Shown here: one piece after another, positions 11,442 to 42,042 of the stretch
How positions within the stretch are numbered: the first letter of the stretch is position 1
Layout: every line of letters starts with the position of its first letter
Assembly: GCA_902168205.1 (NCBI GenBank)
Contig: CABHOK010000007.1
Location: 434,001 to 498,000 of the forward strand
Direction: 5' to 3'
From: an uncultured Chitinophaga sp.
GTDB lineage: Bacteria; Bacteroidota; Bacteroidia; Cytophagales; Cyclobacteriaceae
Length of the DNA stretch: 64,000 nt
The notes under the pieces: generated by a model
What the model saw: the letters and a program-made list of their open reading frames with translations, nothing else
Told to the model about the DNA's origin: nothing
The model's database searches: none
Position numbers and translations under genes: made by a program

Positions 11442-11460
11442 CAATACCAATTCGCTACAA

Positions 11461-12189: not shown

Positions 12190-12193
12190 TGAT

Positions 12194-13687: not shown

Positions 13688-13733
13688 CATTTACGAAATA
13701 CAGGTAAAAATATAATATATATAACGAGTAAAC

Positions 13734-16955: not shown

Positions 16956-16991
16956 CAAACCGCTATATATACCCTGCTTCCGGATTTAGTG

Positions 16992-22100: not shown

Positions 22101-25100
22101 TTATTTATCTGTTACGATCAGTTTCCGAACAAAGCCTGAGTCACCAAACTTCAGAACATATACACCTGATGTCAGATTGTCAACAGATACTTCACCAGTA
22201 GCATAACCGGTATCATCTACAGACAACGTAACTTGCAATTGCAATTTTCCTAACTGATCAAAGAATGCTACCTGCATTTCTGTTGTACTGGTTACACCTT
22301 CCATTTCGATTTTTATAGTGTTACCCGCTGTAGGGTTAGGGTAAACATTCAGGCGCGGTGCATCTTCACTTTCGTACTGTACCATCACAACATCGGAGTA
22401 AACAACATTACCATCGAAGTCAACCTGCTTCAATCTGTAATATGTTTTTCCTACCGCTAGCTTCTCGTCAATATATATATACTGCTGTACATCATTCGTA
22501 GTACCATGGCCATCAACCTGTCCTATCGCGGTAAATTTCCGTCCGTCTCTTGATTTCTCAATGTCGAAGTAATCATTATTAAATTCATTAGCGGTCTTCC
22601 ATTTCAATTCTACGCCACGCGTGATTAGTCTTGCAGTGAAAGAGAGTAACTCTACTGGCAAAGGACTGTTCACATCCGTAGAAGCAAGTGTCTGAGGACT
22701 AAAGTTAGTCATGTTGGTTACCGTTACAGATCCCGCAATGTTTGTTCCGGACTGCGAGAATGTACCGCCAGAGGTTGGAGGCAAGTCCCACTGCGTTCCA
22801 TTCCATCGCGCTACACGTAAGCTGGTAACATCACCAATATTTGGAGGTATATAACTTCCTGTATTGTATGTAAGCGTAAGGTCTGCAGATGTTGAACCAG
22901 TTCTGGATATCATCCAGTACTCAAAGGCACTAACTTTATTGATATTGGTTGTGTTCATGGTGGTGTTCGAGTAACCATCCAGTGACGAACTGTGATCAAA
23001 ATATTCAAAGCTCCAGGAATCTGTAGAACTTGTGTTGGCAATAGTTGCCGGTCTATATTTCGATGAAGGAACACTTCCCAACGGAGCAACAAAAGCTCCT
23101 GCCGCTGAGATTGTTTTAGTCATCGGTCCGTCAACAAAGCTGTTAGCTGATCCTCCGGTTACATTCGCTGTTCCAACTGCCAGGACGTTGTTAGAAGAAG
23201 TAATAACATTACCAGCAATTAATGCTAGTGAATTAGTTATAGAGGTGGTACCCGTTCCAGTAAGGGTAACATTATTTGCTCCTTTATCGATGACTAAATC
23301 ATAGAACGAGTTTGTACCTGTTACGGATTGATTGTTGTTACCATCAAAGGTAACGGAACCTGTACCTTCAGTAAAGGTACCATCGTTAGACCAGTTACCG
23401 GCAATCGCTATATCTGCATTGTTCGCGTCATTGCTGAGGGTAGTACCAGCTGCTATTGTCAAATTACCGTTCACAACAATATCAGATGCTGTCATGGTAA
23501 CTGTACCTGTTGAACCTGCATATATACTTATGTTATTATATGTGGTTCTGTTGTTCATAGTCATTGGAGCAATATACTCGATGGTACCTCCACCTGATGA
23601 TACAAAGGCTGTATAATTACCCGCAGGCAAAGTATTGGTACCTGTTCTCATAGTACCTGTTCCACTAATTATACCCAGGTTATGTCCAGTTCTTGTACCT
23701 ACATATAGTAATCCATTGATCGTTGTTTTATAGGCGCGTCTGCCGTTTGAATTGGTATTTATGCGTGCTCCGCTCAGTACAACAACCGGCACCCCGTTAG
23801 GCACAAAAGCAGATGCGGCCCCCATCCCTGTTGGGTCAGCTGTCCAACTGACTGCTGATGTCCAGTTACCTCCTGTACCCGGGTTTGCAACCGATGCTGT
23901 CACCAACCGACTGTATAATGGAAGTATTGGATTAGGTAATGTATTTACTGTACCTACCGAATAATCATAGTAATTACCAGCTGAAGGTAAATTGGTAGTA
24001 GGCGTTGAAATAAAAGTCATATGTGTAGCATCAGCACTACCTCCATGTCCACTTGTTGTCCAGCCCAGAGGATCTGCATTTCCATCCAGATACCCGGCAA
24101 CTAAAGCGCCTCCCGATCCTGCCATGAGCGAAGATGGATAGGAGTATGTATGGTCACCACTTGCTGTAGCATTGAGTGTACTTCCACGCGATACAATCCA
24201 ATAGTATCTTAAGATTTGTTCAGTGCTATTTTGATTGTATGTAGGGTGAGCACTATTAACAGGCGCTACTGATAGTGTTCCTGCACCGGTTACATTCAGT
24301 GAATAAGAAACAGGCGTATAGTTAGTAGAAGATCCTATCTCATACACGAAAGTCTGTCCAGCTCCCACACCCCAATTTTTTACTACTCCCAAATCGCCAG
24401 ATACACCGTTCGTTCTTATATAGCCGATGGATGATGCGTTCGCTACTGATGCATCTACATCAAAAGTAAGTTGATATGATCCTATATTGAAATAGCGTGT
24501 GTTAGAAGAAGGAAAAGTAAGCACGCCTTTTATAGTAGCATTACCATTAACTATAATGGATTTTAAAGCTGCCGTTCCTCCTAAAGTAATATTCGTAAAC
24601 GAGCCGTTAGAGCTGTTAATAGTATTACTCAGAGAAGTTGTAGAGTAAATCAGAATAGACCCCGCTCCGACTTGTGAACTGTTGTTGGTAACACTTGTCC
24701 GCACGTCTAATGCCAATGGACCTACATCGAGAATACCGGAAAGAATGTATAAATTCTGTAAGATTGGTGACGTACCTGACAGAGTCAATGTAGTACCTGT
24801 TGTCTTGTTTACCGTAAAATTATAAAACGAACTGCTGGATGATAACTGTGCTGCCTGTGCCACTGTTCCGTTGAACGTGGTGTTATTAGTTCCCCCGGTA
24901 TAAGTTCCACTACAAATCAGATTTCCTGCAATAGAAACATCCAATGAGTTTGTAATTAAAACAGAAGGCGTTGGTATCGTTAACGTTCCTCCTATAACTA
25001 GGGGATTTGAATACATGCGTACAGTTTGCGCATTGCTGCCTCCGCCATTTTGAACAGTTAAGTTACCAATAGAAGGAGCAATATTTATCCTGAAATTACT

Positions 25101-28100
25101 TTGCGTTGTAGCGGTAGGCAAACCAACCGTAATCGTACTGGTTGAAGCCACATTACTGCTAAGCGGATTGATAAAGACATCTGCATACCCGGTACCTCCG
25201 GTTTGACGCTGAACATTAAGTACGCTAGTGCCGGTCATTGTAAAACTACTTCCCGTGTTAGCATCAATTTCAAATACACCGCGTGTGCTATTTGAATTGC
25301 GTCCGCCAACCGTTACAGTTCCTCCGGTTTGGTTGTATACCAGTGCTCCTGTAATCGTAGTTGTCGATCTTCTGATTGATCCGTTTACATTTAATATACC
25401 ATTATCTGCGACCTGGATGGTCGGTGTTCCTGCCGAAGCATATTCAATGTCATTACCGCTTGTTCCGCCCGCTATATTTACTGTTCCTGTTCCGGTTACA
25501 GCAAGTGTTCCGGTTAACAGCAAATCAGCGGCATCACTTGCATTGGTTAATATGTTAACAGTACCCGCACCAACTTGCAGTTTGGCTGTAGCCGGTATTG
25601 TAAATGTAGTTGCCGTTGAAACCAATGTATAGGTTTGTGCATTATTAAAATATGCTGTTCCATTCGTTAATGTAAGCCATCCTGAGTTCGCTGCAGTCAC
25701 TGTACCACCAACATCAATTGTGAGTGTTGGTGTTTGTGATGTACCCTTGTTAACGATGAGTGTTGCAAGTGTCGTTCCTCCAGCACCAGTTCCGGTAAAT
25801 GATGTGTTATTACTTCCTGTAAAGGTAAGAGCAACTGTTCCTGTGTTGTTATAGTTGACTGTACCATTATTGGTAAAGTTACCAACTACAGAAAGTGTAT
25901 GCGTTCCACTGGTAGTGTTAAAGGTTCCGCTGTTTGAGACATTCCCTCCAACTGTCAATGCATTGTTACCTGCGTTGGTAAGCGTAAATGTACCGGAAGA
26001 TATATTGAAATCTTTAGTAATTACATTCGAATAGGCTCCCGAGTTTGTTACTATACCTGTACCGGTTTGTTGAACCCAGTTATTATATATAGTCAGACCA
26101 GTCTTAGGCAAATATATTGTATAAGCCGATCCGGGATTTATAATCAAATCATAGTAAGAAGTTAAATTCAGGGATTGAGGTGCCGGACCAACCGATGGAA
26201 TTTCATATCCCATATTAGCAGCATTCAAAGTGTAAACTCTGCTACCGGCTCCTCCGAATAACGAACCATTGAATGTAATTGTATTTCCCGATACATAATC
26301 TCTGCCGGGTTGCGTAACCGTAACGGATGCAATCGTATTGGCTGCACTGACCACAACGGTAAATCGTGCTCCTGTTCCGGAACCATTCGTTGCACTGGCC
26401 GTAACGTTGGTATAAGTACCAGTTGTCATTCCGGATAGTGTTCCTGAAGTGGCCGTCAATGTACCTGGTCTTAAAGAGCCATTGTTGGTAAATGCATACC
26501 ATTCAACAGTTCCCCCGGAAGAGCCTATAAAATTAGTAAAGTCTCCGGCAGGGAAGTTAGGCGATCCTATTCTTAAAGTACCTCGGCCGGAAATCACTCC
26601 ACCACTACCGGCTCCAAAGTTAAGTCCTGTTTTATCGCTACAGTCTAATGTTGAACCTGTATTGATTACTAATGATCCTGACCCAAGACCATGGTTGTCC
26701 ATCGTAATGGTATGATTGACAGCAGCTCCATCACCAATAATAACCGGACAACTTGAACATGGAGCTGTAGTAGCATCCACTCCTATATGTGTAGCACTGT
26801 GCGTCCATGTACTCAGACTGCTCCAAGATCCGTTCGCTTTGCTATAGTACGTTTTGATAACATCAAATGCAACAGCATTACCGCAGGTATATTCACCATC
26901 CAGGCGATCACCAGAAATCGTCCATCCGCTGCCTGTATTAAAAGTAGGAATTGGAGGAGTCGTTGTCGCATTGAAAGTAGTTGTGTTGTTATAGCCCCAG
27001 GTGTTTGAAGTTCTGTCGAAACGTGCAACTCTGTAATTAGCCGTAGGATTATTTTCTACGGCAGTGCTATAATCATAACTTAAATGTGTAACCGCTGTTA
27101 TACCTGAATATCCTGAACTCGTAACATTCCAATAGTATTGTACGCTTTGACCTGTTGTTGCTACGTTAGGATGCTCGCTGTTCACAGGTTTCACCGTTAT
27201 CGTTCCGTGCGTTGATGCCGTAACATTGATCGTGTTGGGAGTGTACAACGTACCCGTACCAACCGGGAATAACAAATTACCGGCTATACCTTGACGCGTA
27301 AGACCTCCTGCATTGTGTAAACCACTGGTCAATATTCGCTTCGTATTATTAAATACTACACTCGTTCCCGCATCACTATATATATTCCCTAAAACAGTAA
27401 GGGCGTAAGAAGCAATATTCAAAGTGGTGTTTGTATTCAGCAATCGTAACGTTCCTGTTACCGTCTGAGCACCTGCAGTAGCTACAGTAGCATTTGCACT
27501 GATCGTCAAATTTCCGAATGTGCCATTTGTACCACCGATTGTATTTGTTCCCGTATAGGTAATGCTACCAGTACCAGTTGATGTATGTACAGCATTGTTA
27601 GTAAGACTGGTCGTTACGGTTACAGTTGTACCACCATCGGCAAGTGTTCCTGATGTTAAGGTTAACGCATTCAATGTAGCAGGAAGAACGGGACTTGTCG
27701 TACCTGCAAGCGTCAACACGGTACCTGTTGTTTTATTCACAACCATGGTAGTGTTAGCCAATGTTGAAATAGTTCCGTTGTTGGTTAACAGCTGAGCGCC
27801 TGTACCGTTGAATGTAATGATGCTGGTACCCGGAGTAAAGGTAGCACCATTGCTCACGGTAAAATTTCCACCGATCGTAACATTCTTGCTGTTACCATTC
27901 AGCGTTGGTGTGTTAGCGCCATCTATATATATACTTCCCAACACCGTAAGCGCACTATTCAACACTGCGGTTCTGTTGTCGGTAGTTCCTTCTCTGTATA
28001 TATTGATATTACCAAGCGGTGCTGTTGAATAGATCGTAAAGTTATTGGAACCACTCAACGGACTTGGACTCGTGCTGGGAGCAGTTGGCGATGTATTTCG

Positions 28101-30857
28101 TGGAATGTATACATTTATAGTACCGCCAGTCACACTATAATTAGCAGATGTACTTTGTATGTCCAATCCGCCTGCTAATGCACCTGAACCGCTAGCTCCG
28201 CTCGTAGGAGAACCAATGTTAATGGTACCTCCCGACATCTGGAAAGATGAGTTTGTGTTTCCTAAAGAGAAACGTGCAAATTCATCCGTATACCCTCCTA
28301 TACCATCGTCAGGTCCTGCTGTTGCCGGTGTACCGTTGTAACCTGTTGTTCCTACATACACATTACCACCTGTTTGCTGATAGGTAAATATACCTGTTCC
28401 GGTTGCAATTGGTCTGTATTGCCAGATCTTAACAACAGTGTTAGTTCCTTCTATAATTACACTACCACCTGCAGCAGAACCAATACCTCTGGAGAAACCT
28501 CCATCGAACGTACTACCGTTGGATACTCTGAATAATCCGTTAGCTAATAAGCGCTGGTCTTCGTTGGTTCCAGAAATATTGGTAGTGAGTGTAACGCTCA
28601 CGTTCGGACTGTTCAACCACAAAGCAGCCGTTTGAGGAATAGCGAAAAGATCGGATCCTATACCTGCTGTACCGTTCTCAATCAACGTAGGAATTGTTAA
28701 TGTACCGGTAAGCTGAAGTGTACCATTGACAAGTGAGAGCGCACAGTTTGAATAACTGGTTGAACTTGAACCAGTGCTGAATCGGTTAGCGGGTCCAAAC
28801 AATTTCAGGTTAGATGCTGCCGATGAGTTGATCGTTAATATAGCTTGCTGTCCAGTCCCTTTGTCCACAATCAGGCGATAGAAATTTGTCTGGTTGTTAC
28901 AAGTAACGGTTTGATCACCCGCACCACTGAACGTAACGTTAACAGCGTTTCCTCGTAAGGCTGCGTTTAATACTGTTGATGAAGTATATGCGCTTGTAAA
29001 CGGTGCCTGCGTTGGATCAAAGAATTGTATAATACCGTTGTTAATAATATTCCCATACATAGTAAGACTGTGCGGTGAAGCTGATGCAGAGTTACCAGTA
29101 CCAGCAGTAATTCTTCCTCCGCTGGCTACAGTCAAATTACCATTAAGTGTAATGGTTCGCTGAGTATTCGAGTTGTTGTTGATTTGCCATGTAACAGTAC
29201 CTGCACCGGTTGTTGACAAATCGAAAGTACTGTTCACAGTAAGATCACTTACTTGCACATAGGTTATCCCTGCTCCTGTGCTGTTCGTCATCTTCAATTT
29301 ATTATACGTTGTGAGCGTAGTCGGCAGGTTTCCACCTATATCATAATATTCAATAGTACCGCCTACAGTAGATACGAAGTCAGTATAAGTACCTGTAGGT
29401 AAATTGACACCTTTTATTCTAAGCAAACCAGCACCTGTAATAGTACCTAAATTGTGTCCTGTTGTTATAGACATATCCAGGATACCGCCACCTTGAATTG
29501 TTGTTGTTGACAAAGTCTGGTTTGAGACATTCACAGTTACCGTAAAGCCGTTCAGAATAACAATCTCTTCATAAGCACCCGGATAAACGTTGGCCGGGTT
29601 GTCGAATGTAGAACCAGAAGGATCAAGCGTCCATGTATTGAAGTCATTGTAGTCACCTGTTTGATAAGAATACCAGGTATTACAGGATACAACTGCTGCC
29701 AAAGTTGAAGGTGTACACGTATTATCCGTAATGACAGATATATTTCCGTTTTGTCCCTGCAATCCGGCAGTAACTGTAATTGAAGTTGTATTTTGTCCTG
29801 AAGTAATTGTCCAGCCTGTAGGCACTGTCCACGTATAGCTGCTCGCACCACTTACTGCCGCAATGCTATAGGTTAATCCTGTAATTGATGGACATGTAGA
29901 AGTTATACCGGTTATAGCACCAGGCGTAGATGAGCCTGCATTAACAGTAAATGTAGGTGAAGTTGTATTGTAGTTATTACCATTCGTCACAACAACATTT
30001 CCGGTAGACACACCGCTTGCGGGCACCGTTGCCGTGATTGATGTAGCGCTGTTCACTACAAAGGGAACTGAAACACCGTTGAAAGTTACTGTAGAAGCAC
30101 CTGTAAAATTGGTACCCGTAATATTCACATTTGCACTGGCACCATCACACATTTTGTTAGGTGAAATTGCTGTTACTGTTGGAGGCGTAACCCAAGTTAT
30201 AATCACGCGTCCTGCTGCTCCGTTTCCTCCGTTTCTATCCGTGCCGTTATTCACAAACGCACCGCCACCGCCTCCGCCAGGAGCAGTTCCTGCATTTCCT
30301 GCACCACCTGTATTTCGTTGTGGTCCGCCAGCTCCACCAGAGTTTCCTCCGGCTCCGCCTGCTGCGCCTATAAGTGCTGTTCCATTGGCTCCATTACCAC
30401 CTGCTGCCAATATATCTCCTATGCTGGAAGCAGTAGAACCTGCACCACCTGCAGCTCCAAGTGCACCATTCGGTGCGGCTCCGCCAGCTCCACCTTGCGC
30501 GAAAATTGTTCCCGCTGTATTAAACCATGATGGATTGCCGGCTACACCTGCAGCTGCTGTACCTGTGCGGGTTGCCCCAACGGTAACAGTATAAGTTGTT
30601 AGTGGAGTAACTGTTAACACTGAACTCGCATAGGAACCACCGGCACCTCCTCCTCCTCCGAGGACCGTGCTTGCAGTGCTACCACCACCAGATCCACCGC
30701 CACCCCAACATTGAACGGTCACCTCAGTCACACCAGCGGGTGCAGACCATGTTGTCGTAGTATTGTGTGTTACCGTGGACAGAGATTGTGAAAAACTCGG
30801 TGTACAAAGCAATGCGCCTAAAGCGATACTTAATGCCAAGCCAAGTGTTGTTTTCAT
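22101..30857 (-). CDS. Giant T9SS-exported repeat surface protein (2918 aa)
   Basis: Signal peptide (MKTTLGLALSIALGALLCTPSFSQ), then a glycine-rich domain (residues about 30-230, many GGAGG runs). An IPT/TIG domain follows (PTVTAISPNKMCDGASANVNITG). Most of the protein is Thr/Asn/Ser-rich beta-solenoid-like sequence. A module recurs three times, near residues 390, 1335 and 2330. Each copy has a W-containing opening (DFNTWTLDP, SLSTWTHSA, SAVSWTADP) and ends GTxxxLPAGNYTxFVSxxGGTIEYY or a close variant. After residue about 2720 come a fibronectin-like segment (WKTANEFNNDYFDIEKSRDGR) and a type A T9SS sorting domain (NVYPNPTAGNTIKI). Probably a surface adhesin or structural filament; ligand unknown. 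The gene is intact across 8.76 kb. Confidence 0.9.
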   Translation of the reverse strand: MKTTLGLALSIALGALLCTPSFSQSLSTVTHNTTTTWSAPAGVTEVTVQCWGGGGSGGGSTASTVLGGGGGAGGSYASSVLTVTPLTTYTVTVGATRTGTAAAGVAGNPSWFNTAGTIFAQGGAGGAAPNGALGAAGGAGSTASSIGDILAAGGNGANGTALIGAAGGAGGNSGGAGGPQRNTGGAGNAGTAPGGGGGGAFVNNGTDRNGGNGAAGRVIITWVTPPTVTAISPNKMCDGASANVNITGTNFTGASTVTFNGVSVPFVVNSATSITATVPASGVSTGNVVVTNGNNYNTTSPTFTVNAGSSTPGAITGITSTCPSITGLTYSIAAVSGASSYTWTVPTGWTITSGQNTTSITVTAGLQGQNGNISVITDNTCTPSTLAAVVSCNTWYSYQTGDYNDFNTWTLDPSGSTFDNPANVYPGAYEEIVILNGFTVTVNVSNQTLSTTTIQGGGILDMSITTGHNLGTITGAGLLRIKGVNLPTGTYTDFVSTVGGTIEYYDIGGNLPTTLTTYNKLKMTNSTGAGITYVQVSDLTVNSTFDLSTTGAGTVTWQINNNSNTQRTITLNGNLTVASGGRITAGTGNSASASPHSLTMYGNIINNGIIQFFDPTQAPFTSAYTSSTVLNAALRGNAVNVTFSGAGDQTVTCNNQTNFYRLIVDKGTGQQAILTINSSAASNLKLFGPANRFSTGSSSTSYSNCALSLVNGTLQLTGTLTIPTLIENGTAGIGSDLFAIPQTAALWLNSPNVSVTLTTNISGTNEDQRLLANGLFRVSNGSTFDGGFSRGIGSAAGGSVIIEGTNTVVKIWQYRPIATGTGIFTYQQTGGNVYVGTTGYNGTPATAGPDDGIGGYTDEFARFSLGNTNSSFQMSGGTINIGSPTSGASGSGALAGGLDIQSTSANYSVTGGTINVYIPRNTSPTAPSTSPSPLSGSNNFTIYSTAPLGNINIYREGTTDNRTAVLNSALTVLGSIYIDGANTPTLNGNSKNVTIGGNFTVSNGATFTPGTSIITFNGTGAQLLTNNGTISTLANTTMVVNKTTGTVLTLAGTTSPVLPATLNALTLTSGTLADGGTTVTVTTSLTNNAVHTSTGTGSITYTGTNTIGGTNGTFGNLTISANATVATAGAQTVTGTLRLLNTNTTLNIASYALTVLGNIYSDAGTSVVFNNTKRILTSGLHNAGGLTRQGIAGNLLFPVGTGTLYTPNTINVTASTHGTITVKPVNSEHPNVATTGQSVQYYWNVTSSGYSGITAVTHLSYDYSTAVENNPTANYRVARFDRTSNTWGYNNTTTFNATTTPPIPTFNTGSGWTISGDRLDGEYTCGNAVAFDVIKTYYSKANGSWSSLSTWTHSATHIGVDATTAPCSSCPVIIGDGAAVNHTITMDNHGLGSGSLVINTGSTLDCSDKTGLNFGAGSGGVISGRGTLRIGSPNFPAGDFTNFIGSSGGTVEWYAFTNNGSLRPGTLTATSGTLSGMTTGTYTNVTASATNGSGTGARFTVVVSAANTIASVTVTQPGRDYVSGNTITFNGSLFGGAGSRVYTLNAANMGYEIPSVGPAPQSLNLTSYYDLIINPGSAYTIYLPKTGLTIYNNWVQQTGTGIVTNSGAYSNVITKDFNISSGTFTLTNAGNNALTVGGNVSNSGTFNTTSGTHTLSVVGNFTNNGTVNYNNTGTVALTFTGSNNTSFTGTGAGGTTLATLIVNKGTSQTPTLTIDVGGTVTAANSGWLTLTNGTAYFNNAQTYTLVSTATTFTIPATAKLQVGAGTVNILTNASDAADLLLTGTLAVTGTGTVNIAGGTSGNDIEYASAGTPTIQVADNGILNVNGSIRRSTTTITGALVYNQTGGTVTVGGRNSNSTRGVFEIDANTGSSFTMTGTSVLNVQRQTGGTGYADVFINPLSSNVASTSTITVGLPTATTQSNFRINIAPSIGNLTVQNGGGSNAQTVRMYSNPLVIGGTLTIPTPSVLITNSLDVSIAGNLICSGTYTGGTNNTTFNGTVAQAAQLSSSSSFYNFTVNKTTGTTLTLSGTSPILQNLYILSGILDVGPLALDVRTSVTNNSSQVGAGSILIYSTTSLSNTINSSNGSFTNITLGGTAALKSIIVNGNATIKGVLTFPSSNTRYFNIGSYQLTFDVDASVANASSIGYIRTNGVSGDLGVVKNWGVGAGQTFVYEIGSSTNYTPVSYSLNVTGAGTLSVAPVNSAHPTYNQNSTEQILRYYWIVSRGSTLNATASGDHTYSYPSSLMAGSGGALVAGYLDGNADPLGWTTSGHGGSADATHMTFISTPTTNLPSAGNYYDYSVGTVNTLPNPILPLYSRLVTASVANPGTGGNWTSAVSWTADPTGMGAASAFVPNGVPVVVLSGARINTNSNGRRAYKTTINGLLYVGTRTGHNLGIISGTGTMRTGTNTLPAGNYTAFVSSGGGTIEYIAPMTMNNRTTYNNISIYAGSTGTVTMTASDIVVNGNLTIAAGTTLSNDANNADIAIAGNWSNDGTFTEGTGSVTFDGNNNQSVTGTNSFYDLVIDKGANNVTLTGTGTTSITNSLALIAGNVITSSNNVLAVGTANVTGGSANSFVDGPMTKTISAAGAFVAPLGSVPSSKYRPATIANTSSTDSWSFEYFDHSSSLDGYSNTTMNTTNINKVSAFEYWMISRTGSTSADLTLTYNTGSYIPPNIGDVTSLRVARWNGTQWDLPPTSGGTFSQSGTNIAGSVTVTNMTNFSPQTLASTDVNSPLPVELLSFTARLITRGVELKWKTANEFNNDYFDIEKSRDGRKFTAIGQVDGHGTTNDVQQYIYIDEKLAVGKTYYRLKQVDFDGNVVYSDVVMVQYESEDAPRLNVYPNPTAGNTIKIEMEGVTSTTEMQVAFFDQLGKLQLQVTLSVDDTGYATGEVSVDNLTSGVYVLKFGDSGFVRKLIVTDK

Positions 30858-31801: not shown

Positions 31802-32182
31802 ATGACCTATACCATCGATACAAACAAAGTAGTAAGTGAGATTTTTAATGACGAAGCTGTCATTGTGAATTTGGCGAGTGGAGCGTACTATAGCTTTAAA
31901 GGATCAGCAATTACAATCTGGCAATTATTAGGCGCAGGCTATAGTGTTGAGGAAATCATTGGACAGTTTAAAGAGACAGAGTCTATCAACAAATTTATAG
32001 CGTTCCTGACGCAGGAGAATTTGATTGCACCATCTGATGCAATCGTGAAAGAAACTATACCATTCGATCAGCAATTCATGCTTCCCGAGTATAAAAAATA
32101 TGACGATATGAAGGATCTTTTACTCCTGGATCCTATTCACGAAGTTGATCAAACCGGCTGGCCTCATAAGAAAGCTGAATGA
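31802..32182 (+). CDS. PqqD-family RiPP recognition-element protein
   Basis: 126 residues. Residues 1-90 match the PqqD fold: VVSEIFNDEAVIVNLASGAYYSFKGSAITIWQLLGAGYSVEEIIGQF. This domain (RRE) binds leader peptides in many RiPP pathways. The C-terminal tail DPIHEVDQTGWP looks like tails I associate with PqqD-like proteins encoded beside HPr-kinase-like and nucleotidyltransferase genes; that association is from memory. It is the first gene of a six-gene run and overlaps the next gene by 4 bp (ATGA). The presence of an RRE argues for a peptide substrate, although no precursor gene is visible nearby. Confidence 0.85.
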   Translation: MTYTIDTNKVVSEIFNDEAVIVNLASGAYYSFKGSAITIWQLLGAGYSVEEIIGQFKETESINKFIAFLTQENLIAPSDAIVKETIPFDQQFMLPEYKKYDDMKDLLLLDPIHEVDQTGWPHKKAE

Positions 32183-33204
32183 AAGCTTCAGACCCGGAAA
32201 TTTTCTTCAATACACTTAAGGCATTATATACAAACTCCGTTGCGCAAAACCCCTCAACCGTTCATGTGCAACTGGCTGAAAAAATATTGACTATAAATTT
32301 TTCCAGGCCGGAGTTAAAAGTATATATGCTCGGTTCGCTATCGCATATACGGGTGAATAACGTTTCTTCGTCTGACATTACTATATATTGCTTTGATAGT
32401 CCCCTCCTCACATCGTTTCCCTGGCAAGGGCAACAATATGGTGTGCAAGGTACCATAGAAGGCTTTAATACTGCACGCTTCCAAACCGCATACCAGCATG
32501 GTTCCGGAGCCGTAATGATGTATGATCGCGAAACAAAAGAAGGTATATATTGGATAAGAGACTTTACCGATATTCCGTATTGGGAACGTAGCTTTCCTTT
32601 CCGATCTATTTTGCATTGGTGGTCGCGCGATACATCTTACATTTTGTTACATGCAGCAGGTATTGGACAACACCATAGCGCTGCACTTCTCTCCGGGAAA
32701 AGTGGTTCAGGCAAGTCCAGTACTACCTTGTCTTGCCTGTTGAGAGATGACCTGCTCATTGCAGGTGATGACTATGTGCTGGTAGATACAGCGACATGTA
32801 CCCTATATTCACTATACAACTGCGCGAAAGTTGAATGGGACAATTTAGAAAGACTGGATTTTCTAAAGCCACTGGTAAATACAACTATTAAAGAAGCCGA
32901 GAAAGCCATGATTTTTATGCATGAAGCTTGTGCAGAAAAAATTATGCAACGCAGCAAGCTTGAGTATGCATTCATTCCCATGGTATGCAAAGCAAATAAG
33001 ACTTCCATTGTAAAATGTACTGAAGCTGAAGTTCTGAAAAGCATCGCTCCTACTACAATGTTTCAATTACCTTTCGGACAAAATGAAACATTTCAAAAAT
33101 GTATTACATTAACAAAGAAACTCAGGCCCTATAGAATTGAGCTTGGTACAGATGCCAATGAAATAGCGGCAGCGATCTCGGAGTTTCTGATCGATAAAAA
33201 TTAA
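32179..33204 (+). CDS. HPr-kinase/lasso-kinase-like protein
   Basis: 341 residues. The C-terminal half has LLHAAGIGQHHSAALLSGKSGSGKSSTT with an intact Walker A (GKSGSGKS, about residues 173-180) and LLIAGDDYVLV (about 192-202), the arrangement of HPr serine kinase C-terminal-type proteins. Homologues in paeninodin-type lasso-peptide clusters phosphorylate the precursor peptide (established for PadeK). The N-terminal 140 residues are beta-rich and unrecognised. It overlaps the PqqD-like gene by 4 bp and is followed by a glycosyltransferase after 4 bp. It most likely phosphorylates or otherwise activates the product of this operon; inference. Confidence 0.8.
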   Translation: MKASDPEIFFNTLKALYTNSVAQNPSTVHVQLAEKILTINFSRPELKVYMLGSLSHIRVNNVSSSDITIYCFDSPLLTSFPWQGQQYGVQGTIEGFNTARFQTAYQHGSGAVMMYDRETKEGIYWIRDFTDIPYWERSFPFRSILHWWSRDTSYILLHAAGIGQHHSAALLSGKSGSGKSSTTLSCLLRDDLLIAGDDYVLVDTATCTLYSLYNCAKVEWDNLERLDFLKPLVNTTIKEAEKAMIFMHEACAEKIMQRSKLEYAFIPMVCKANKTSIVKCTEAEVLKSIAPTTMFQLPFGQNETFQKCITLTKKLRPYRIELGTDANEIAAAISEFLIDKN

Positions 33205-33208
33205 TGTC

Positions 33209-33928
33209 ATGTTGCTATCAGTGATTATGCCTGTATACAACGGTGCTGCCTATATAAAGGAAGCTATTGAAAGCATCCTGGCGCAACAGGACATAACCAT
33301 CGCGCTCGAAATTATTGTCGTTGATGATGGCTCTACGGATTCTACTGCCGATATTATTCATGCATTGAATAGTCCTGTCGTTCGGTATATTCACCAATCA
33401 AACAGTGGACCTTCAAAAGCAAGAAACACCGGCATACTTCAGGCACAAGGCAAGTTGATTGCATTTCTGGATGCAGATGATTGCTGGCCTGCCGATAAAC
33501 TAAAACGCCAACTGTCATTCCTCAGGGAGAATCAAAACGTTGATGTAGTGGGCGGTTTGATTGATTATTTTTATATGCCCGGTTCAGAATATAGAAAGGA
33601 ACAGATAAAAATAGATAGCCCTGTTTTTAATGTCCAACTCGGTGGACTCATCGTTCGCAAGAACGTGTTTGATCGCGTGGGATATTTTAACGAACAGCTT
33701 CGTTTTTCCGAAGATCAGGATTGGGTGCTTCGCGTAAAGGAATCAAATGTTAAGATGACCATTCTGAATGATATTGTTCTTTTCTATCGGATTCATCCGG
33801 GGAATATAACCATTCACAAGACACTGAAAGATTTAGGGGTATTGCGGGCATTGAAATTGTCATTAGACAGAAGAAGACAAATGTCTACAGATCCTTTGAA
33901 ACCAGGTAACGATGAAAGCAAAGATTAG
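33209..33928 (+). CDS. Family 2 glycosyltransferase (first copy)
   Basis: 239 residues, GT-A fold: LSVIMPVYNGAAYIKEAIESIL, IIVVDDGSTDST for nucleotide-sugar binding, SGPSKARNTGI, and the metal-binding LDADD (about residues 89-93). EDQDWVLRVKES is the usual catalytic ED region. It ends with LRALKLSLDRRRQMS, a tail shared with the second copy. Soluble, no membrane helix. It overlaps the next glycosyltransferase by 17 bp. It probably adds a sugar to the operon's product; donor and acceptor unknown. Confidence 0.88.
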   Translation: MLLSVIMPVYNGAAYIKEAIESILAQQDITIALEIIVVDDGSTDSTADIIHALNSPVVRYIHQSNSGPSKARNTGILQAQGKLIAFLDADDCWPADKLKRQLSFLRENQNVDVVGGLIDYFYMPGSEYRKEQIKIDSPVFNVQLGGLIVRKNVFDRVGYFNEQLRFSEDQDWVLRVKESNVKMTILNDIVLFYRIHPGNITIHKTLKDLGVLRALKLSLDRRRQMSTDPLKPGNDESKD

Positions 33929-34592
33929 TGTGATTGTTCCTGCCTATAACGCAGGTAAATATATAGGAGAAGCCCTACAGAGTATTCTGGATCAAACTAT
34001 ACCTGTGGATGAAATCATTGTTATAGACGATGGCTCTACAGACAATACCAGAGAAGTAGTTTCTAATTTTCCGGTCCGATATTTTTATCAGACCAATAAG
34101 GGAACAGCGGCTGCGTTGAATGCAGGAATAGAACAATCGTCCGGAGAATACCTGGCGTTTCTCGATGCCGATGATCTATGGATGTCTCAACGACTACATC
34201 TGCAACTGCAGGCCTTCGAAAAAGATACCGCCCTGGATATGGTGTTTGGCCTGATGCAACAATTCATTAGTCCAGAATTACCGGAAGAAGAGCAGCGTAA
34301 AATAGAAGTAAACACGGCAGAAGTAATGGTAGGCATACATAAATCTGCATGGTTAATAAAACGCGAGACCTTGATGCGTGTTGGACTTTTTGCCGGAGGA
34401 TTTTTACTCGAAGAGTTTACCGATTGGTACGCGCGCTCAAAGGAGAAGAAACTTCATGAGGCCGTTATTCAACACGTGGTTGCCAAAAGAAGAATACATC
34501 AGTCCAATACATCTCGTGTTCAAAAGAATATAAAACAAGATTATCCCCGCATCCTGAAAGCTGCGCTGGATAGAAGACGACAGCAAGAGTAA
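33912..34592 (+). CDS. Family 2 glycosyltransferase (second copy)
   Basis: 226 residues, GT-A: ISVIVPAYNAGKYIGEALQSIL, IIVIDDGSTDNT, GTAAALNAGIEQ, LDADD. It ends ILKAALDRRRQQE, so the C-terminal [SA]LDRRRQ motif recurs in both copies and suggests paralogy or a shared docking element. The ED region is replaced by LLEEFTDWYARSKE, which keeps acidic residues. Its stop overlaps the ABC transporter start by one base (TAATG). A second sugar transfer step, or a different acceptor from copy one, is inferred. Confidence 0.88.
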   Translation: MKAKISVIVPAYNAGKYIGEALQSILDQTIPVDEIIVIDDGSTDNTREVVSNFPVRYFYQTNKGTAAALNAGIEQSSGEYLAFLDADDLWMSQRLHLQLQAFEKDTALDMVFGLMQQFISPELPEEEQRKIEVNTAEVMVGIHKSAWLIKRETLMRVGLFAGGFLLEEFTDWYARSKEKKLHEAVIQHVVAKRRIHQSNTSRVQKNIKQDYPRILKAALDRRRQQE

Positions 34593-36226
34593 TGAAGATT
34601 TTAAATTCCATTCGTGTCTTGATCGCTTCCTTCCATCAGAAAATATGGATCGTTGTAATCTTTGCTGTTCTCTTATCAGCGCTTCTTATACCGGTAAGTT
34701 TTTTAGTGAAAGTAATTTTTGATCAGGCTATCCCCGATAACGATGTCAATTTGTTGCTGAAGTTAACCGTAGCACTGATCGCACTGATGACATGCAATGG
34801 TATTCTCTCGATATATACACGGGCTACAATATTGCGCTATACGAAAGACGCAGTGTCTAATATACGCAACGCTTTGTCTGAAAAATTACTCCGACTGTCT
34901 CATGCCTCCTATCAACAGGCTGACATATCCCGAATCCACAAGATTCTTGTTTATGACACCGAGAAGCTTGACAATTTTGCCAACGCTATATTTTCAGTCA
35001 TGATACCTTCTGCCTGTATAAGCCTTTGCCTGGTGATTATACTGATAATCCTCAATTTACAAATGAGTCTGTTGCTCCTCGCAATTACTCCACTCATTAT
35101 ACTGATTACCGAATTCCTGAGAAGAGCCAGCAAAAAAAGCTTAAGCCAATTTCAAGCATCTTTTGAAAGTTTTCATAAGAAATCCCTTTTTCTTCTTGAG
35201 TTCAACAAACTGATCAAAGTCTCATCTACACAACAAAAAGAAGCTGAGCATCATAAAAGTATTGTCCGTGAATTGAACAATTCAAGTCTCCGAATGGCCA
35301 TTGGCTTCATCAAGATGTCCAATTACCAGGAAGTAGTGTTCTCCGTCAGCAGCATTATACTCCTGGCATGGGGCAGTTATACTGTTATGCAAGGCAGCAT
35401 GACTATCGGAACGTTGATGTCATTCTATTTTTGCCTCTTCTTGCTGAAACGATATTTGAATACAATTGGCAGTGCACTCCCCTCTGTTATAGAAGGAACT
35501 GATTCATGGCAGCAATGCACCCGGTTGTTATCCGAACAGCATGATGAGACCTATACCGGCACAATACAACATGTGTTCGATGGTAAAATTGAATGCAGAG
35601 ACATTACGTTCTCTTTCGGCGAACTACCCTTGTTTAAAAACTTCAACCTCTCCTTACGTCCCGGTGAGACAACGCTGGTGATCGGCCCCAACGGCTCTGG
35701 TAAAAGTACATTGGTAAATCTTATACTGGGCCTATATCAACCGCATGAAGGCACTGTATACGCAAGTGATATGGCCTACACCCAATGGGATATTCAATAC
35801 CTGCGAAGCAAGATAGCCGTGGTGTTACAGGAAGACACTACATTTCAAGGCACTATACTGGAGAATATAACGTACGGAATTCCCAACGCAGGTCCTGGCG
35901 CTGTGCAAGAGGCTGTTCAGTATTCAGGTTTACACGAATTTATCGAGTCTCTGCCTGAAGGACTTCACACGGTTATCGGAGAAAAGGGAGCAAGCCTCTC
36001 TGGTGGCCAACGGCAGAAGATTGCTATAGCAAGATGCTTTCTTGCCAAAGCATCGCTTATAATTTTAGATGAACCCACAAACCACCTGGATGAATCTACC
36101 GTAGAACTCATAGCAAGCTCATTAAAAAAACAAAAGCATACGCCTTCGGTTCTCATCATCACACACACCGAGCGATTGCGTTCACGCTCAGATCAAGTTA
36201 TCGAATTAAAAACAGCTTACGCCTGA
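34592..36226 (+). CDS. ABC-type exporter, fused membrane and ATPase domains
   Basis: 544 residues: a six-helix type I exporter membrane domain (residues about 1-310), then an ATPase with Walker A GPNGSGKST (about 370), the Q-loop region VVLQEDTTFQGTILENI, signature LSGGQRQKIAIARC and Walker B LIILDEPTNHLDE. There is no N-terminal C39 peptidase domain, so leader removal would need another protein. It is fourth in the operon and overlaps the downstream gene by one base (TGATG). In RiPP-like clusters this class exports the mature product; a glycan or glycolipid cargo is also possible. Confidence 0.9.
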   Translation: MKILNSIRVLIASFHQKIWIVVIFAVLLSALLIPVSFLVKVIFDQAIPDNDVNLLLKLTVALIALMTCNGILSIYTRATILRYTKDAVSNIRNALSEKLLRLSHASYQQADISRIHKILVYDTEKLDNFANAIFSVMIPSACISLCLVIILIILNLQMSLLLLAITPLIILITEFLRRASKKSLSQFQASFESFHKKSLFLLEFNKLIKVSSTQQKEAEHHKSIVRELNNSSLRMAIGFIKMSNYQEVVFSVSSIILLAWGSYTVMQGSMTIGTLMSFYFCLFLLKRYLNTIGSALPSVIEGTDSWQQCTRLLSEQHDETYTGTIQHVFDGKIECRDITFSFGELPLFKNFNLSLRPGETTLVIGPNGSGKSTLVNLILGLYQPHEGTVYASDMAYTQWDIQYLRSKIAVVLQEDTTFQGTILENITYGIPNAGPGAVQEAVQYSGLHEFIESLPEGLHTVIGEKGASLSGGQRQKIAIARCFLAKASLIILDEPTNHLDESTVELIASSLKKQKHTPSVLIITHTERLRSRSDQVIELKTAYA

Positions 36227-37422
36227 TGCACACCTTACCAAAAAATTTTTACAACCCATTGCCTACTGCGCATCAAACGCTCTTGTTGAAAGCATGCCTT
36301 TTGGACAATGGTCAGGCTGTTCAATACTGGGAGAAATGGATGTTGGTAAAGGGCTTCCGTGATCTGACCAGCCAGCCATCAAACGGTATACTTCCCCAGG
36401 TTTACGATCGTCTTGATTTCGCCTCTCAGCGTTTACTTGCGTTGCTATATAAAAAGATGTCTGCGGCAGGCGTTAATCATCCGTTGGTCACCGCGCTGAA
36501 AGGATACTACCGCTATATATGGGTGCGAAACCAGTTGTTGAAAGATGAACTTAAAAACATCGCTGAGACATTCAACGCGCAAGGTATAAAACACATTGTT
36601 ATCAAAGGTTTCCCCATGACCGAAGTATACTATAAAGACCTGGGCGTTCGATCAGTATTGGATCTCGATATTATGATCCACCATGATTCCTGGCATCAGG
36701 CTCTGAAAATCTTATCCGAAAACAGATGGGTAAGCAAGGAAGCACAGTATACTCCGGAGGCCGTGACGCATAGTCTGCACCACGCAACACACCTTGTTAA
36801 AGATCAGTTTGAAATCGACCTTCATATCCGTTTTCATGATTTTCCGCTTACCGAAAATACGGTGGAGAGTTTCTGGAAAGAAGCGATTACTTACAAACCG
36901 GGACATAAAATGCTACGCCCTGAACATCAGTTTATCAGTGCCCTTATTCATGGTTATGATCTTGGTGGTGATACTATACTTCGTGCAATTGTCGATACAA
37001 CCTATATCATTCAGAATACACCCGGGTTTGACTGGAAACTGGTTCTCGAAGTTATACAACAAAATAACCTGCACATTCCCGCGAAGGTGCTCCTGGAATA
37101 TCTGAACAACGAAGGAATCTGTCCCATACCGGAATATGCTCTGGCAGCATTGCAAAATTATTCTCTCACCAACAAAGAAGCCCGGTATTTCAACCTGCTT
37201 ACTACACCTGATGTTGGCAACGGGTATAAACTTCTTAAGCTACGGCTATTACAACTCGGCTTGGTAAAAGTATCAATCTTTGAAAAAGTGAAAATTCTGA
37301 TCAATACCTATAAATACCAATGGGGCGCATCATCGTTATTCACATTAGCATATCGCACAACCCTTGTAATGATTGACAAATTCAAGTCTCCGGAAAAGTC
37401 TGTGGTGACAAGAAAATTTTAG
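36226..37422 (+). CDS. NTP_transf_5-type nucleotidyltransferase
   Basis: 398 residues. HIVIKGFPMTEVYYKDLGVRSVLDLDIMIH (about residues 124-153) matches the uncharacterised nucleotidyltransferase family NTP_transf_5: a KG motif, then R...DxD with the two metal-binding acidic residues. The rest is helical. Homologues occur beside PqqD-like and HPr-kinase-like genes in lasso-peptide-type clusters, where they are thought to modify the kinase product; this is from memory. It is the last gene of the operon, ending about 37 bp before a terminator-like hairpin. Confidence 0.8.
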   Translation: MHTLPKNFYNPLPTAHQTLLLKACLLDNGQAVQYWEKWMLVKGFRDLTSQPSNGILPQVYDRLDFASQRLLALLYKKMSAAGVNHPLVTALKGYYRYIWVRNQLLKDELKNIAETFNAQGIKHIVIKGFPMTEVYYKDLGVRSVLDLDIMIHHDSWHQALKILSENRWVSKEAQYTPEAVTHSLHHATHLVKDQFEIDLHIRFHDFPLTENTVESFWKEAITYKPGHKMLRPEHQFISALIHGYDLGGDTILRAIVDTTYIIQNTPGFDWKLVLEVIQQNNLHIPAKVLLEYLNNEGICPIPEYALAALQNYSLTNKEARYFNLLTTPDVGNGYKLLKLRLLQLGLVKVSIFEKVKILINTYKYQWGASSLFTLAYRTTLVMIDKFKSPEKSVVTRKF

Positions 37423-37458: not shown

Positions 37459-37482
37459 GAGCGCGTAACATCATTCGCGCTC
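37459..37482. terminator. Hairpin at the convergent end of the six-gene operon
   Basis: GAGCGCG (37459-37465) pairs with CGCGCTC (37476-37482) around a 10-nt loop, followed on the plus strand by TTCCCTTG. It overlaps the last codons of the minus-strand DUF3592 gene. It is a weak terminator by T-run but well placed for the plus operon. Confidence 0.5.
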
Positions 37483-38103
37483 TTCCCTTGCTTCGATCAC
37501 GGATACTTGTGTGGATATATCTATATCGCCCACTTGAAATATAAATTTACCAATTCCCAGCGCCCATATAACCAGGGTAACTACAAGTACTTTCTTCATT
37601 TCTAATTTCCTTTTCAGTGCCCGTAATAAAAATGTAAGAAGAAGCGAATTCCACATAATTGAAAATATGAGCATACCAATCATGGCATTGGTTACGCCCC
37701 TTATTACTACCGATTCTGCCGGGTCATTCTCATTCACATAAATCTGAATGACTTGCGATTGATTCAGCGCATTATACAATTCCCCGTAGTGTTCTATATT
37801 ATTCATTCCGGAGTTAAATGAAACCGAACTTCCCATAAACGTTTGTGAGCTAACGCTATATTTATACTTCATCTCAACCTTGTAGGATGTCGACTCTGAA
37901 TCACTACTGGAAACCATCTCCACCGAAAGGACTTTTGCATGCACAGGTGTCCAATTCCTTGCCTGAGCGACTTTGCCAAATTGATATAAAGCCAATCCGA
38001 ATGTGCCGATACCAATTAAAACAAATGGTGTTATAAACAAAACCAGGCAGCCCATTGACTTTATACTTTTCTTCTGACCCGTTGGCTCCGACTCTTTAAG
38101 CAC
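37471..38103 (-). CDS. DUF3592 membrane protein
   Basis: 210 residues. An N-terminal transmembrane helix (CLVLFITPFVLIGIGTFGLALYQF), a periplasmic-type beta region with WTPVHAKVLSVEM, YKYSVSSQTFMGSSVSF and IYVNENDPAESVVIRG that matches DUF3592, then two more helices. Function unknown in the family. It lies 25 bp after another membrane protein gene on the same strand, so the two are likely one transcript. Confidence 0.8.
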   Translation of the reverse strand: MLKESEPTGQKKSIKSMGCLVLFITPFVLIGIGTFGLALYQFGKVAQARNWTPVHAKVLSVEMVSSSDSESTSYKVEMKYKYSVSSQTFMGSSVSFNSGMNNIEHYGELYNALNQSQVIQIYVNENDPAESVVIRGVTNAMIGMLIFSIMWNSLLLTFLLRALKRKLEMKKVLVVTLVIWALGIGKFIFQVGDIDISTQVSVIEAREERE

Positions 38104-38776: not shown

Positions 38777-38820
38777 TGTCGTTAAATGACGGCATGTTAT
38801 ATTGTCGTCAAATGACGACA
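38777..38820 (+). promoter_or_regulatory. Twin 18-bp operator of the first ArsR gene
   Basis: TGTCGTTAAATGACGGCA (38777-38794) and the perfect palindrome TGTCGTCAAATGACGACA (38803-38820) are two copies of the same dyad, with centres 26 bp apart. The second ends 2 bp before the ArsR start codon at 38823. They are almost certainly autoregulatory sites for that repressor. The 8 bp between them (TGTTATAT) overlaps the expected -7 region. Confidence 0.8.
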
Positions 38821-38822
38821 CA

Positions 38823-39149
38823 ATGATTTTAAGACGAGATATTTTCCAAGCTATTGCCGACCCAACCAGGAGATCAATTCTGGCGCTTCTGGCGTCACAG
38901 ACTATAACTGCTGGCGCTATTGCCGATCAGTTTGACGGAGCACGGTCCACCATCTCCAAACACATTCAAATACTGACGGAATGTGGCCTGGTAGAGTCCA
39001 ACCAGCAAGGCCGGGAAATATACTATCAGATCAAAATTGAGAAGATGAAAGAAATTGATCTGTGGTTAGATCAGATCCTGAAAATCTGGGAAAACCGCTT
39101 TGACAATCTCGATACATATCTGGAAAAAATTCAGAAAAATAAACGATAA
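38823..39149 (+). CDS. ArsR-family autorepressor, first copy
   Basis: Start at ATG 38823; an in-frame TTG at 38802 lies inside the operator and is rejected. About 108 residues of winged-helix ArsR type: [30 protein letters not shown], recognition helix STISKHIQILTECGLV and wing QQGREIYYQI. No metal-binding cysteine pair is present, so it belongs to the SdpR-like class often paired with SRPBCC proteins. It is 4 bp upstream of an SRPBCC gene. It is closely similar to the ArsR at 41719-42042. Confidence 0.88.
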   Translation: MILRRDIFQAIADPTRRSILALLASQTITAGAIADQFDGARSTISKHIQILTECGLVESNQQGREIYYQIKIEKMKEIDLWLDQILKIWENRFDNLDTYLEKIQKNKR

Positions 39150-39153
39150 AACC

Positions 39154-39612
39154 ATGGAGACTAAACAAAGCAACGAGATACGCAGTACGCGAACATTCAA
39201 GGCTCCGATCGACCTTGTATGGGAAGTATGGACAAAACCCGAACACATCGTCAATTGGTGGGGCCCTAACGGATTTACCAATACCATTCACACCATGGAT
39301 TTTAAAGAAGGTGGTGAATGGACATTAACGATGCACGGACCAGACGGAACAAACTATCCAAACAGAAGTATCTTCAAAGAAATTATACCACTGAAGAAAA
39401 TCGTGTTCGAGCATTTCAATCCGCACTTCATTACCACCGTTCTCTTTGAAGCAAAAGGCGAAGAAACGAAAATAGACTGGTCACTAGAATTTGACACCGC
39501 AGAGATGCGTGACATTGTTGTAAAAGCACACAAAGCTGACGAAGGTCAAAAACAGAATCTGGACAAACTCGAACAATACCTGGTGTCGAATGTTCTGAAG
39601 CCAAAAGTATAG
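39154..39612 (+). CDS. SRPBCC (AHSA1-type) protein, first copy
   Basis: Start at ATG 39154 (METKQSNEIRSTRTFKAP); a longer frame from 39100 overlaps the ArsR gene. About 152 residues of the START/AHA1 C-terminal-like fold: DLVWEVWTKPEHIVNWWGPNGFTN, then GGEWTLTMHGPDGTNYPN. These proteins form a hydrophobic ligand cavity; ligand and role are unknown here. Co-transcribed with the ArsR regulator, as is common for this pair. Confidence 0.87.
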   Translation: METKQSNEIRSTRTFKAPIDLVWEVWTKPEHIVNWWGPNGFTNTIHTMDFKEGGEWTLTMHGPDGTNYPNRSIFKEIIPLKKIVFEHFNPHFITTVLFEAKGEETKIDWSLEFDTAEMRDIVVKAHKADEGQKQNLDKLEQYLVSNVLKPKV

Positions 39613-41242: not shown

Positions 41243-41710
41243 TTATTTTAGTTTGCTTACTACTTTTTGTAAAAGGTTATGCGCCATATTTATACCCTGC
41301 GCGAAAGGTAGCTTCAGCATCTGATCCCTGAGTCCAACAGATTTATATACTATATGTATAGTGAGTTTGCTTGTGTCCTCTGTAATTTTTTCAAACTCAA
41401 GAAACTCGAGTTGAGGAGCAAAAGGTGTATTCTCCATTTCAAATGTCCGTGTAATTTTTTGCTCCGGAACAAATTCATGAAACACTCCGCTCGCCTGGAA
41501 CACCACGTTCCCGTGTTCGTCTCTGGTTTGGTATTGCCAGCCTCCATGCTTTTTACCTTCAAACTTCAGTACGTTCGTACTCATCCATTGTTCAATAATT
41601 TCAGGCTCGATATGCGCTCTGAAAAGCAAGTCCAGCGGTAAATCAAACTCACGCGTTATCAGTATGTCGTGCTTGCCTTCTTCGGCATCAATTTTGGTTT
41701 TTCGTTCCAT
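41243..41710 (-). CDS. SRPBCC (AHSA1-type) protein, second copy
   Basis: 155 residues with the AHSA1 pattern ILITREFDLPLDLLFRAHIEPEIIEQWMSTNVLKF and GGWQYQTRDEHGNVVFQASGVFHEFVPEQKITRTFEME. It is 8 bp after the second ArsR gene, paralleling the first ArsR-SRPBCC pair at 38823-39612. Ligand unknown. Confidence 0.87.
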   Translation of the reverse strand: MERKTKIDAEEGKHDILITREFDLPLDLLFRAHIEPEIIEQWMSTNVLKFEGKKHGGWQYQTRDEHGNVVFQASGVFHEFVPEQKITRTFEMENTPFAPQLEFLEFEKITEDTSKLTIHIVYKSVGLRDQMLKLPFAQGINMAHNLLQKVVSKLK

Positions 41711-41718
41711 GATTATAA

Positions 41719-42042
41719 CTATTTTTTGGGTTTGTATTTTTTCATGATGGACTCTAATTTATTAAACCGATCGTCCCACAATTTGCGAAACGGCTCGATG
41801 AAGTCTGCTATCTCTTTGATCTTCTTAGGATTTAGGTGATAATATATTTCTCTTCCGTTTTGTTCTTGCGCCAGCAATTCACACTCGGTAAGTATTTGCA
41901 AATGTTTTGAAACCGTTGGTCTCGCTGTATCAAAGTTTGAAGCTATTGCACCTGCTGTCATCGACTGCGAAGCAACCAACAGAAGTATAGCCCTTCGTGT
42001 CGGGTCCGCTATGGCCTGAAATACATCTCTTCGTAAATTCAT
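41719..42042 (-). CDS. ArsR-family autorepressor, second copy
   Basis: 107 residues: [30 protein letters not shown], recognition helix [16 protein letters not shown] and wing [10 protein letters not shown]. Close paralogue of the ArsR at 38823-39149, and like it without metal-ligand cysteines. It heads a minus-strand run of ArsR, SRPBCC, DoxX, YdeI and probably DUF4256. The upstream region carries two dyads (42045-42088) around a TATATTTG promoter element. Confidence 0.9.

Follow-up and report, generated by a model that had tools for sequence, protein, structure and literature searches.

A PqqD-like recognition protein with a conserved leader-like tail, encoded beside an HprK-like kinase and glycosyltransferases under many phylum-level labels

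We analysed a 64,000-nt stretch of DNA (the window) from an uncultured Chitinophaga sp. (GCA_902168205.1, contig CABHOK010000007.1, positions 434,001-498,000 of the forward strand), in which six open reading frames (ORFs) of the plus strand form a tight operon. The first of these encodes a PqqD-like protein of the kind that serves as a recognition element (RRE) for ribosomally synthesized and post-translationally modified peptides (RiPPs), and this protein, which we call the tailed RRE protein, ends in a conserved C-terminal tail. The tail is the main feature of the locus that is absent from the first-pass annotation, a reading of the letters and their ORFs. The genes and features of the operon are as follows.

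31802..32182, plus strand: tailed RRE protein, PqqD-like, 126 residues, with the conserved C-terminal tail (Pfam PqqD, 26.8 bits; cut-off 23.4)
32075..32101, plus strand: leader-like, putatively RRE-binding stretch of the tail, residues 92-100, FMLPEYKKY (column conservation, model strand)
32099..32164, plus strand: conserved tail segment, residues 100-121, Y..DM..LLLLDPIHEVD..GWP (alignment conservation)
32179..33204, plus strand: HprK-like kinase (homologue profile against solved HPr kinases, invariant residues)
33209..33928, plus strand: family 2 glycosyltransferase (GT2) 1 (Pfam Glycos_transf_2, 131.7 bits)
33912..34592, plus strand: GT2 glycosyltransferase 2 (Pfam Glycos_transf_2, 124 bits)
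34592..36226, plus strand: ATP-binding cassette (ABC) exporter, no peptidase domain listed (Pfam ABC_membrane 74.2 bits, ABC_tran 116.4 bits)
36226..37422, plus strand: NTP_transf_5 nucleotidyltransferase-like protein (Pfam, 106.9 bits)

The ORF listing confirmed the six ORFs and the close spacing that the first-pass annotation had described, with junctions that are, in order, a 4-base overlap, a 4-base gap, a 17-base overlap and two 1-base overlaps. Its family labels also held, all of them above the Pfam cut-offs except that of the kinase, for which the window protein alone scored 17.7 bits against Hpr_kinase_C (cut-off 33.3). A profile of 19 kinase homologues linked to tailed RRE proteins found the solved HPr kinases 1jb1 (36.8 bits), 2qmh and 1ko7 as its top matches, and residues H158, G173, G176, G178, K179, S180, D197 and D198, which include the Walker A motif, were invariant in the 19 homologues; the HprK label thus appears firmer from the alignment than from the Pfam score of the window protein. 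Residues G128, R142, D146, D257 and W270 of the NTP_transf_5 protein were likewise invariant across 19 homologues, and the exporter scored best against MsbA models, yet below their cut-offs. The six-gene operon is real and its family labels are correct. The nearest long ORFs on either side (22101-30857 and 37471-38103) both lie on the minus strand, the upstream one separated from the operon by about 940 bases, and the genome (7.3 Mb, 20 contigs) contains a single PqqD match.

A profile of 108 tailed RRE proteins matched TbiB1 (67 bits), 9x90 (50.4 bits), TfuB1 (37.5 bits) and the LppB structure 9x8z (32 bits), and a Foldseek search with the model of the tailed RRE protein found TbiB1 with its leader (5v1v/5v1u) as the best match. 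By its TbiB1 and TfuB1 matches the protein has the features of a lasso-type RRE (B1), although it reached just 24.7 bits against NCBIfam lasso_PqqD_Bac (cut-off 80); four tailed RRE proteins gave weak lasso-PqqD or WgkC matches in NCBIfam, or none, and a Pfam and NCBIfam scan of three tails alone gave zero matches. Among relatives in the family sample, the best-conserved part was the end of the protein. Scanning GTDB genomes with a degenerate pattern of DNA that encodes DP[IV]H[DE][VI][DE]..GW, we found at least 117 stretches; in 114 of them the tail belongs to a PqqD-like ORF, and by similarity these ORFs form a single cluster with the tailed RRE proteins of loci L007-L009. The wider tail motif was present in all 114 listed ORFs, and in 113 of them the ORF ended no more than 25 residues past it; the ORF of L058 extends 164 residues beyond the motif. 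Stretch L119 matched by chance, and a contig end interrupted both L112 and L143; the RRE was only partly visible in L083 and L118, L078 was interrupted but has a whole copy in its genome (L163), the L080 protein was whole in a six-frame reading, and L088 has a tail without an in-frame RRE.

Together with L007-L009, the scan gave 117 listed tailed RRE proteins (L054 and L009 are the same contig), with the tail consensus [F/Y]xxPxL.KY.DMQ[D/E]LLLLDPIH[E/D]VDExGWP. Tail position -18 was aromatic in 109 of the 117 (F in 76, Y in 27, W in 6), position -15 was proline in 99, position -13 was leucine in 69 and F, I, V or M in 44, and position -10 was Y in 91 and F in 21; positions -8 and -7 were D in 112 and M in 106, and a proline directly followed GW in 113. 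In the 108-row alignment, the top residue had a mean frequency of 0.81 over residues 100-121 and 0.45 over residues 91-99, compared with 0.44 for the RRE and 0.18 for the linker. The scan pattern itself imposes the D, P, H, acidic and GW places, and those columns were judged on 12 tailed RRE proteins found by profile without the pattern: DP[IV]H[DE][VI] and GW were kept in all 12, with two or three residues between VD (or its variants) and GW. Seven of these 12 came from a profile (A2) that includes the tail; left out before it was built were 5 of the 117 proteins that have no full RRE start, 3 of 112 as near-copies, and then L058 and L082. Residues 97-109, which the scan pattern does not touch, had a mean top-residue frequency of 0.71. 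The tail was found in none of 56 shorter RRE ORFs. No hydroxyl residue is invariant in the listed tails: 12 of 116 are devoid of Ser and Thr from position -9 onward, and 4 of 116 are devoid of Ser, Thr and Tyr from position -10 onward.

The start of the tail resembles [Y/W]xxPx[L/V/I/F/A], the motif by which, according to the available part of a recent report, the RREs of lasso peptides and of the LPP class hold their leader (PMC13381572, Nat Commun 2026). The AlphaFold model of the window protein (mean predicted local distance difference test score (pLDDT) 84.7) places a strand at residues 96-100, in a block (91-100) at pLDDT 93 flanked by weaker blocks (82 before, 61 after). In the model of an Oscillatoria homologue, the blocks spanning 91-110 scored 61 and 70 and block 111-120 scored 97, with a strand at 119-122, followed by blocks at 73, 55 and 63. 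The FxxPx[L/Y] stretch is thus predicted to be a confident strand paired with the strands of the RRE; this pairing is deduced from the strand assignment rather than from coordinates, because a strand assigned by DSSP must pair with another one, and the other strands lie only in or next to the RRE.

To place the operon in a wider context, we surveyed several genome sets. Matches to the tailed RRE protein occurred in 5 of 196 genomes of the family sample, the window's own included (one of the five, in G034, was weak and fell on an unrelated ORF), and tailed RRE proteins occurred in 6 of 146 genomes of a sample centred on Oscillatoria, the centre included and one with a diverged tail. The set is rare within each phylum sampled, yet spread over about 25 phylum-level labels (104 rows, with 6 unlabelled rows left uncounted), the labels being submitters' titles and many rows metagenome bins; the tree of the tailed RRE proteins is built on few columns, and many of its forks are weak. 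We mapped 120 loci with home-made ORF calling, which was also used for further loci; the 120 comprise the 117 listed scan loci (no more than 8 kb each, three without a callable tailed RRE protein) and L007-L009. Many are incomplete; a kinase was found in 85 of the loci, a GT2 in 83 (by profile match), NTP_transf_5 in 56 and the exporter in 31. Six-frame matches within 12 kb of the tailed RRE protein in 25 wider loci gave a kinase in 24, GT2 in 24, NTP_transf_5 in 22 and the exporter in 15, and in seven loci the kinase and GT2 were fused in one ORF. Because the same set recurs around the tailed RRE protein in other phyla, the association goes beyond chance, which refutes the possibility that these genes are never conserved together.

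The link to the kinase was especially close. Across 21 genomes (20 picked for holding a tailed RRE protein, and the window's own), all 21 strong kinase matches lay within about 12 kb of one; G593, where the tailed RRE protein is near a contig end, has none. Among 395 Bacteroidota genomes that were not picked in this way, 6 had a tailed RRE protein (at least 88 bits) and 7 a strong kinase match (at least 193 bits). All 6 tailed RRE proteins adjoin a kinase, the seventh kinase is interrupted by a contig end, and G523 has a contig-edge fragment that is possibly an interrupted tailed RRE protein. The tailed RRE protein and the HprK-like kinase are paired.

Further neighbours of the tailed RRE proteins include GT2, GT1/GT4, epimerase and sulfotransferase genes; in 79 scanned genes out of 174 listed neighbours, Pfam gave Glycos_transf_1 8 times, Epimerase 7 times and Sulfotransfer_1 3 times among the best 25 of 121 families. 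Such neighbours, like the best score of the exporter against MsbA, would also fit plain tailoring genes of a surface polysaccharide, with the PqqD-like protein and its tail being structural and unrelated to leader binding. We consider this very unlikely: the RRE-binding motif known from the literature occurs in the tail with constant spacing, the models place the tail as a strand against the RRE, and the protein that bears it is tied to the kinase.

The set was also seen on a plasmid. Among 50,697 phage records, none matched the one tailed RRE protein used as a query, and we rejected a phage-borne set on this basis; of three plasmid records that matched, Crinalium epipsammum pCRI9333.04 did so over the full length, and its annotation reads PqqD family protein, nucleotidyltransferase family protein, HPr kinase, FkbM family methyltransferase and glycosyltransferase. 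The whole set lies at 5896-17248 of this plasmid, which is typed as mobilizable; genes for an FkbM methyltransferase and for TPR and SMP-30-like proteins lie between the members of the set, and the reverse transcriptase of a group II intron is encoded upstream. Two other arrangements of RREs were observed in passing. Beside a diverged-tail protein at L190 (G680), one minus-strand ORF (3-1511) combines a kinase-like P-loop region, assigned by eye, with a second RRE-like region that is a weak profile match (29.7 bits). The 2.3-Mb genome G697 has eight PqqD-like matches, several of them in frames of 315-328 residues on two contigs, in a different multi-RRE arrangement.

The first-pass annotation had suggested a phosphorylated and glycosylated peptide or a modified surface glycan as the product, and a search for a recurring small ORF as a check. 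Small ORFs in the unmasked DNA of 135 loci formed no family wider than four loci, and the largest family was confined to Oscillatoria, two of its four loci being one place. This clustering excluded the window, whose 18 upstream small ORFs were compared separately and matched solely in the window's own genome and in a near relative (L145). A tail-only profile gave 33 significant matches in 31 genomes bearing tailed RRE proteins, all of them inside the genes for these proteins, and thus no free-standing tail. With no small ORF recurring around the tailed RRE protein, a separate peptide product is unsupported, and the refuting condition that the first-pass annotation had set for loci devoid of a peptide gene holds by half; the leader-like peptide sits on the PqqD-like protein itself, and this fusion is the likely reason that no separate precursor recurs.

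We also searched for the enzymes that usually act on such precursors. Neither the B2 protease (PF13471, Transglut_core3) nor the archaeal-type SpI peptidase (TIGR02228) had a match in the window's genome; they matched in 6 and 7 of the 21 genomes, respectively, and never on the contig of the tailed RRE protein, an absence that is weak where these contigs are short. Asn_synthase (PF00733) lay within 10 kb of 1 of the 22 tailed RRE proteins in the 21 genomes (G583, divergent), and none of the five matches in the window's genome is on the contig of the operon. Shorter RREs adjoin Asn-synthetase genes in some of these genomes (G597, C75 and C62; G591, C1; G592, C20), and the lasso-like sets there are therefore separate from the tailed RRE protein.

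RiPP precursors can lie far from their cluster. The tailed RRE protein, being of the lasso/LPP type, could thus be an ordinary RRE of a RiPP pathway whose precursor is unlinked and lies elsewhere in the genome, with the tail acting as an autoinhibitory or regulatory pseudo-leader. However, no leader-like ORF recurs near the tailed RRE protein, and the window's genome has no Transglut_core3 or archaeal-type SpI match at all; we regard this explanation as very unlikely.

A second explanation is that the protein is a fusion of RRE and precursor, in which the tail comprises leader and core and the kinase, NTP_transf_5 and glycosyltransferases modify its conserved C-terminal segment in cis. The product would then either be exported after an unlinked protease has released it, or the protein would persist as a glycan carrier. 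The small-ORF and tail-only searches, which found no separate precursor, are consistent with this, as is the position of the tail, which is followed by at most 25 further residues in all but one of the 114 scan ORFs; the displayed segment would also occupy the place of the core of an LPP precursor, as described in the available part of the LPP report (PMC13381572). By contrast, no B2 or SpI peptidase lies near the tailed RRE protein, the tail segment is near-invariant whereas LPP cores are variable, and Ser is the residue modified by HprK-type kinases known from this kit (PMC13381572, same part), a poor fit to the 12 tails that have no Ser or Thr from position -9 on and the 4 that have no Ser, Thr or Tyr from position -10 on. 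We consider a fusion of this kind unlikely, and Ser/Thr phosphorylation of the tail is disfavoured as a general rule because of those 12 tails.

Our tentative preference is that the tailed RRE protein is an RRE carrying its own leader, which docks the kinase, nucleotidyltransferase and glycosyltransferase partners toward what may be an exported phosphoglycan. The [F/Y]xxPxL of the tail would lie as an extra beta strand in the PqqD-like domain of the same protein, much as the leader of a precursor encoded separately lies in the RREs of lasso and LPP systems. The docked strand would present DMQ[D/E]LLLLDPIH[D/E]VDExGWP at the place where lasso and LPP systems present the residues that lead into the core. 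This segment may then dock the HprK-like kinase first, followed by NTP_transf_5 and the glycosyltransferases, keeping these enzymes in a leader-bound, active state that needs no separate peptide substrate. The enzymes would build a phosphate-bearing glycan on a non-peptide acceptor, and the MsbA-like ABC protein, where present, would export it. We favour an adaptor with a non-peptide acceptor because there is no nearby peptidase and no invariant hydroxyl in the tail, and because the neighbours include sugar enzymes; the lack of an invariant hydroxyl favours docking over tail phosphorylation, and the tailed RRE protein is less likely to be the acceptor.

Several observations weigh against this preference. 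The FxxPxL stretch is on average no better conserved than the RRE (0.45 versus 0.44), and its proline is missing in 18 of the 117 listed proteins. The monomer AlphaFold models fit cis and trans binding alike, and the DPIH..GWP part is modelled at just about 50-63 pLDDT. The exporter is near the tailed RRE protein in only 15 of the 25 wider loci, the window operon appears to lie outside a polysaccharide locus, with unrelated opposite-strand ORFs on both sides, and the putative glycan product is deduced from the enzyme families alone. More broadly, we think it somewhat probable that these genes represent a widespread RRE pathway that unites the recognition domain with the peptide it recognizes in one protein, the near-invariant tail serving as activator or acceptor for the kinase, nucleotidyltransferase and glycosyltransferases and leading to a peptide-directed phosphoglycan or an undescribed, conserved cofactor-like glycopeptide.

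The closest known kind of system is LPP/lasso maturation, which combines an RRE, HprK, an NTP transferase and an exporter with a separate precursor, and our results support the link that the first-pass annotation had drawn to this phosphorylated-peptide kit. As described in the available part of PMC13381572, LPP clusters have the gene order lppA-K-B-S-D-N, are restricted to Bacillota, and encode a separate precursor with a variable core and an SpI-type leader peptidase; a further mark of the class is a core serine that is phosphorylated several times. Both systems have a discrete RRE, an HprK-like kinase, an NTP transferase and an MsbA-like exporter (present in the window), and both share the [Y/W]xxP leader logic and frequent polysaccharide-gene neighbours. 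In contrast to LPP, our set has its leader-like tail on the RRE protein itself, regularly includes GT2 genes and carries about 25 phylum-level labels; the kit is that of LPP minus precursor and peptidase, plus glycosyltransferases and the fused tail. With no separate YxxP-leader precursor and no SpI on the contigs of the tailed RRE proteins, the set falls outside LPP.

As set out in the accessible parts of PMC7533575 and PMC13381572, paeninodin-type phosphorylated lasso peptides and pseudomycoidin share with our cassette an RRE of the same sequence family, an HprK-like kinase and a glycosylation-associated nucleotidyltransferase. The cassette lacks their B2 protease, cyclase and precursor, and, as the first-pass annotation had stated, it is not a standard lasso cluster. 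The kinase matched HprK_rel_A (TIGR04352) weakly, at 31.9 bits against a curated cut-off of 200 (35.1-38.7 bits for four other linked kinases). Matches to SynChlorMet ScmC and ScmD (TIGR04249, TIGR04248) by the kinase and the PqqD-like protein were also weak (ScmD, 17.1 bits versus 100), and none of the six window proteins matched radical SAM. PqqD, MftB and other chaperones of cofactor RiPPs have the PqqD fold, and their precursors PqqA and MftA are conserved. The tail resembles these as a near-invariant peptide across many phyla; unlike them, it is fused to the chaperone, and the window operon has no radical SAM partner. PADLOC models matched the ABC ATPase region only, and we rejected a defence system. 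According to the available part of a survey of RREs, 21% of PF05402 proteins are larger than a discrete RRE yet bear no other annotation (PMC12710340); the tailed RRE protein would belong among these. We found no earlier description of this set in the open-access literature, which leaves out most subscription journals.

RREs are a common handle for RiPP mining, which usually seeks an adjacent, separate precursor, and an RRE with its own leader would escape such mining or be labelled 'PqqD family protein'. If the tail docks enzymes, a peptide-modifying kit would be shown to have been redirected to another substrate; if it is modified, it would be a new and unusually conserved RiPP. The conserved 22-residue segment is a directly testable handle under either reading.

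We made some further observations around the cassettes. Past the cassette of L009 (G042), at 11406-14204, two related ORFs of about 270 residues flank a sulfotransferase-like ORF (assigned by eye), which looks as if the cassette acquires more tailoring genes. In the window, the minus-strand ORF at 22101-30857 encodes a repeat-rich protein of 2918 residues, one end of which we take to resemble the sorting domains of type IX secretion. The window also has an ArsR-like regulator paired with an AHSA1/SRPBCC-like protein (named by eye) at 38802-39612 and a similar pair at 41243-42042, one on each strand.

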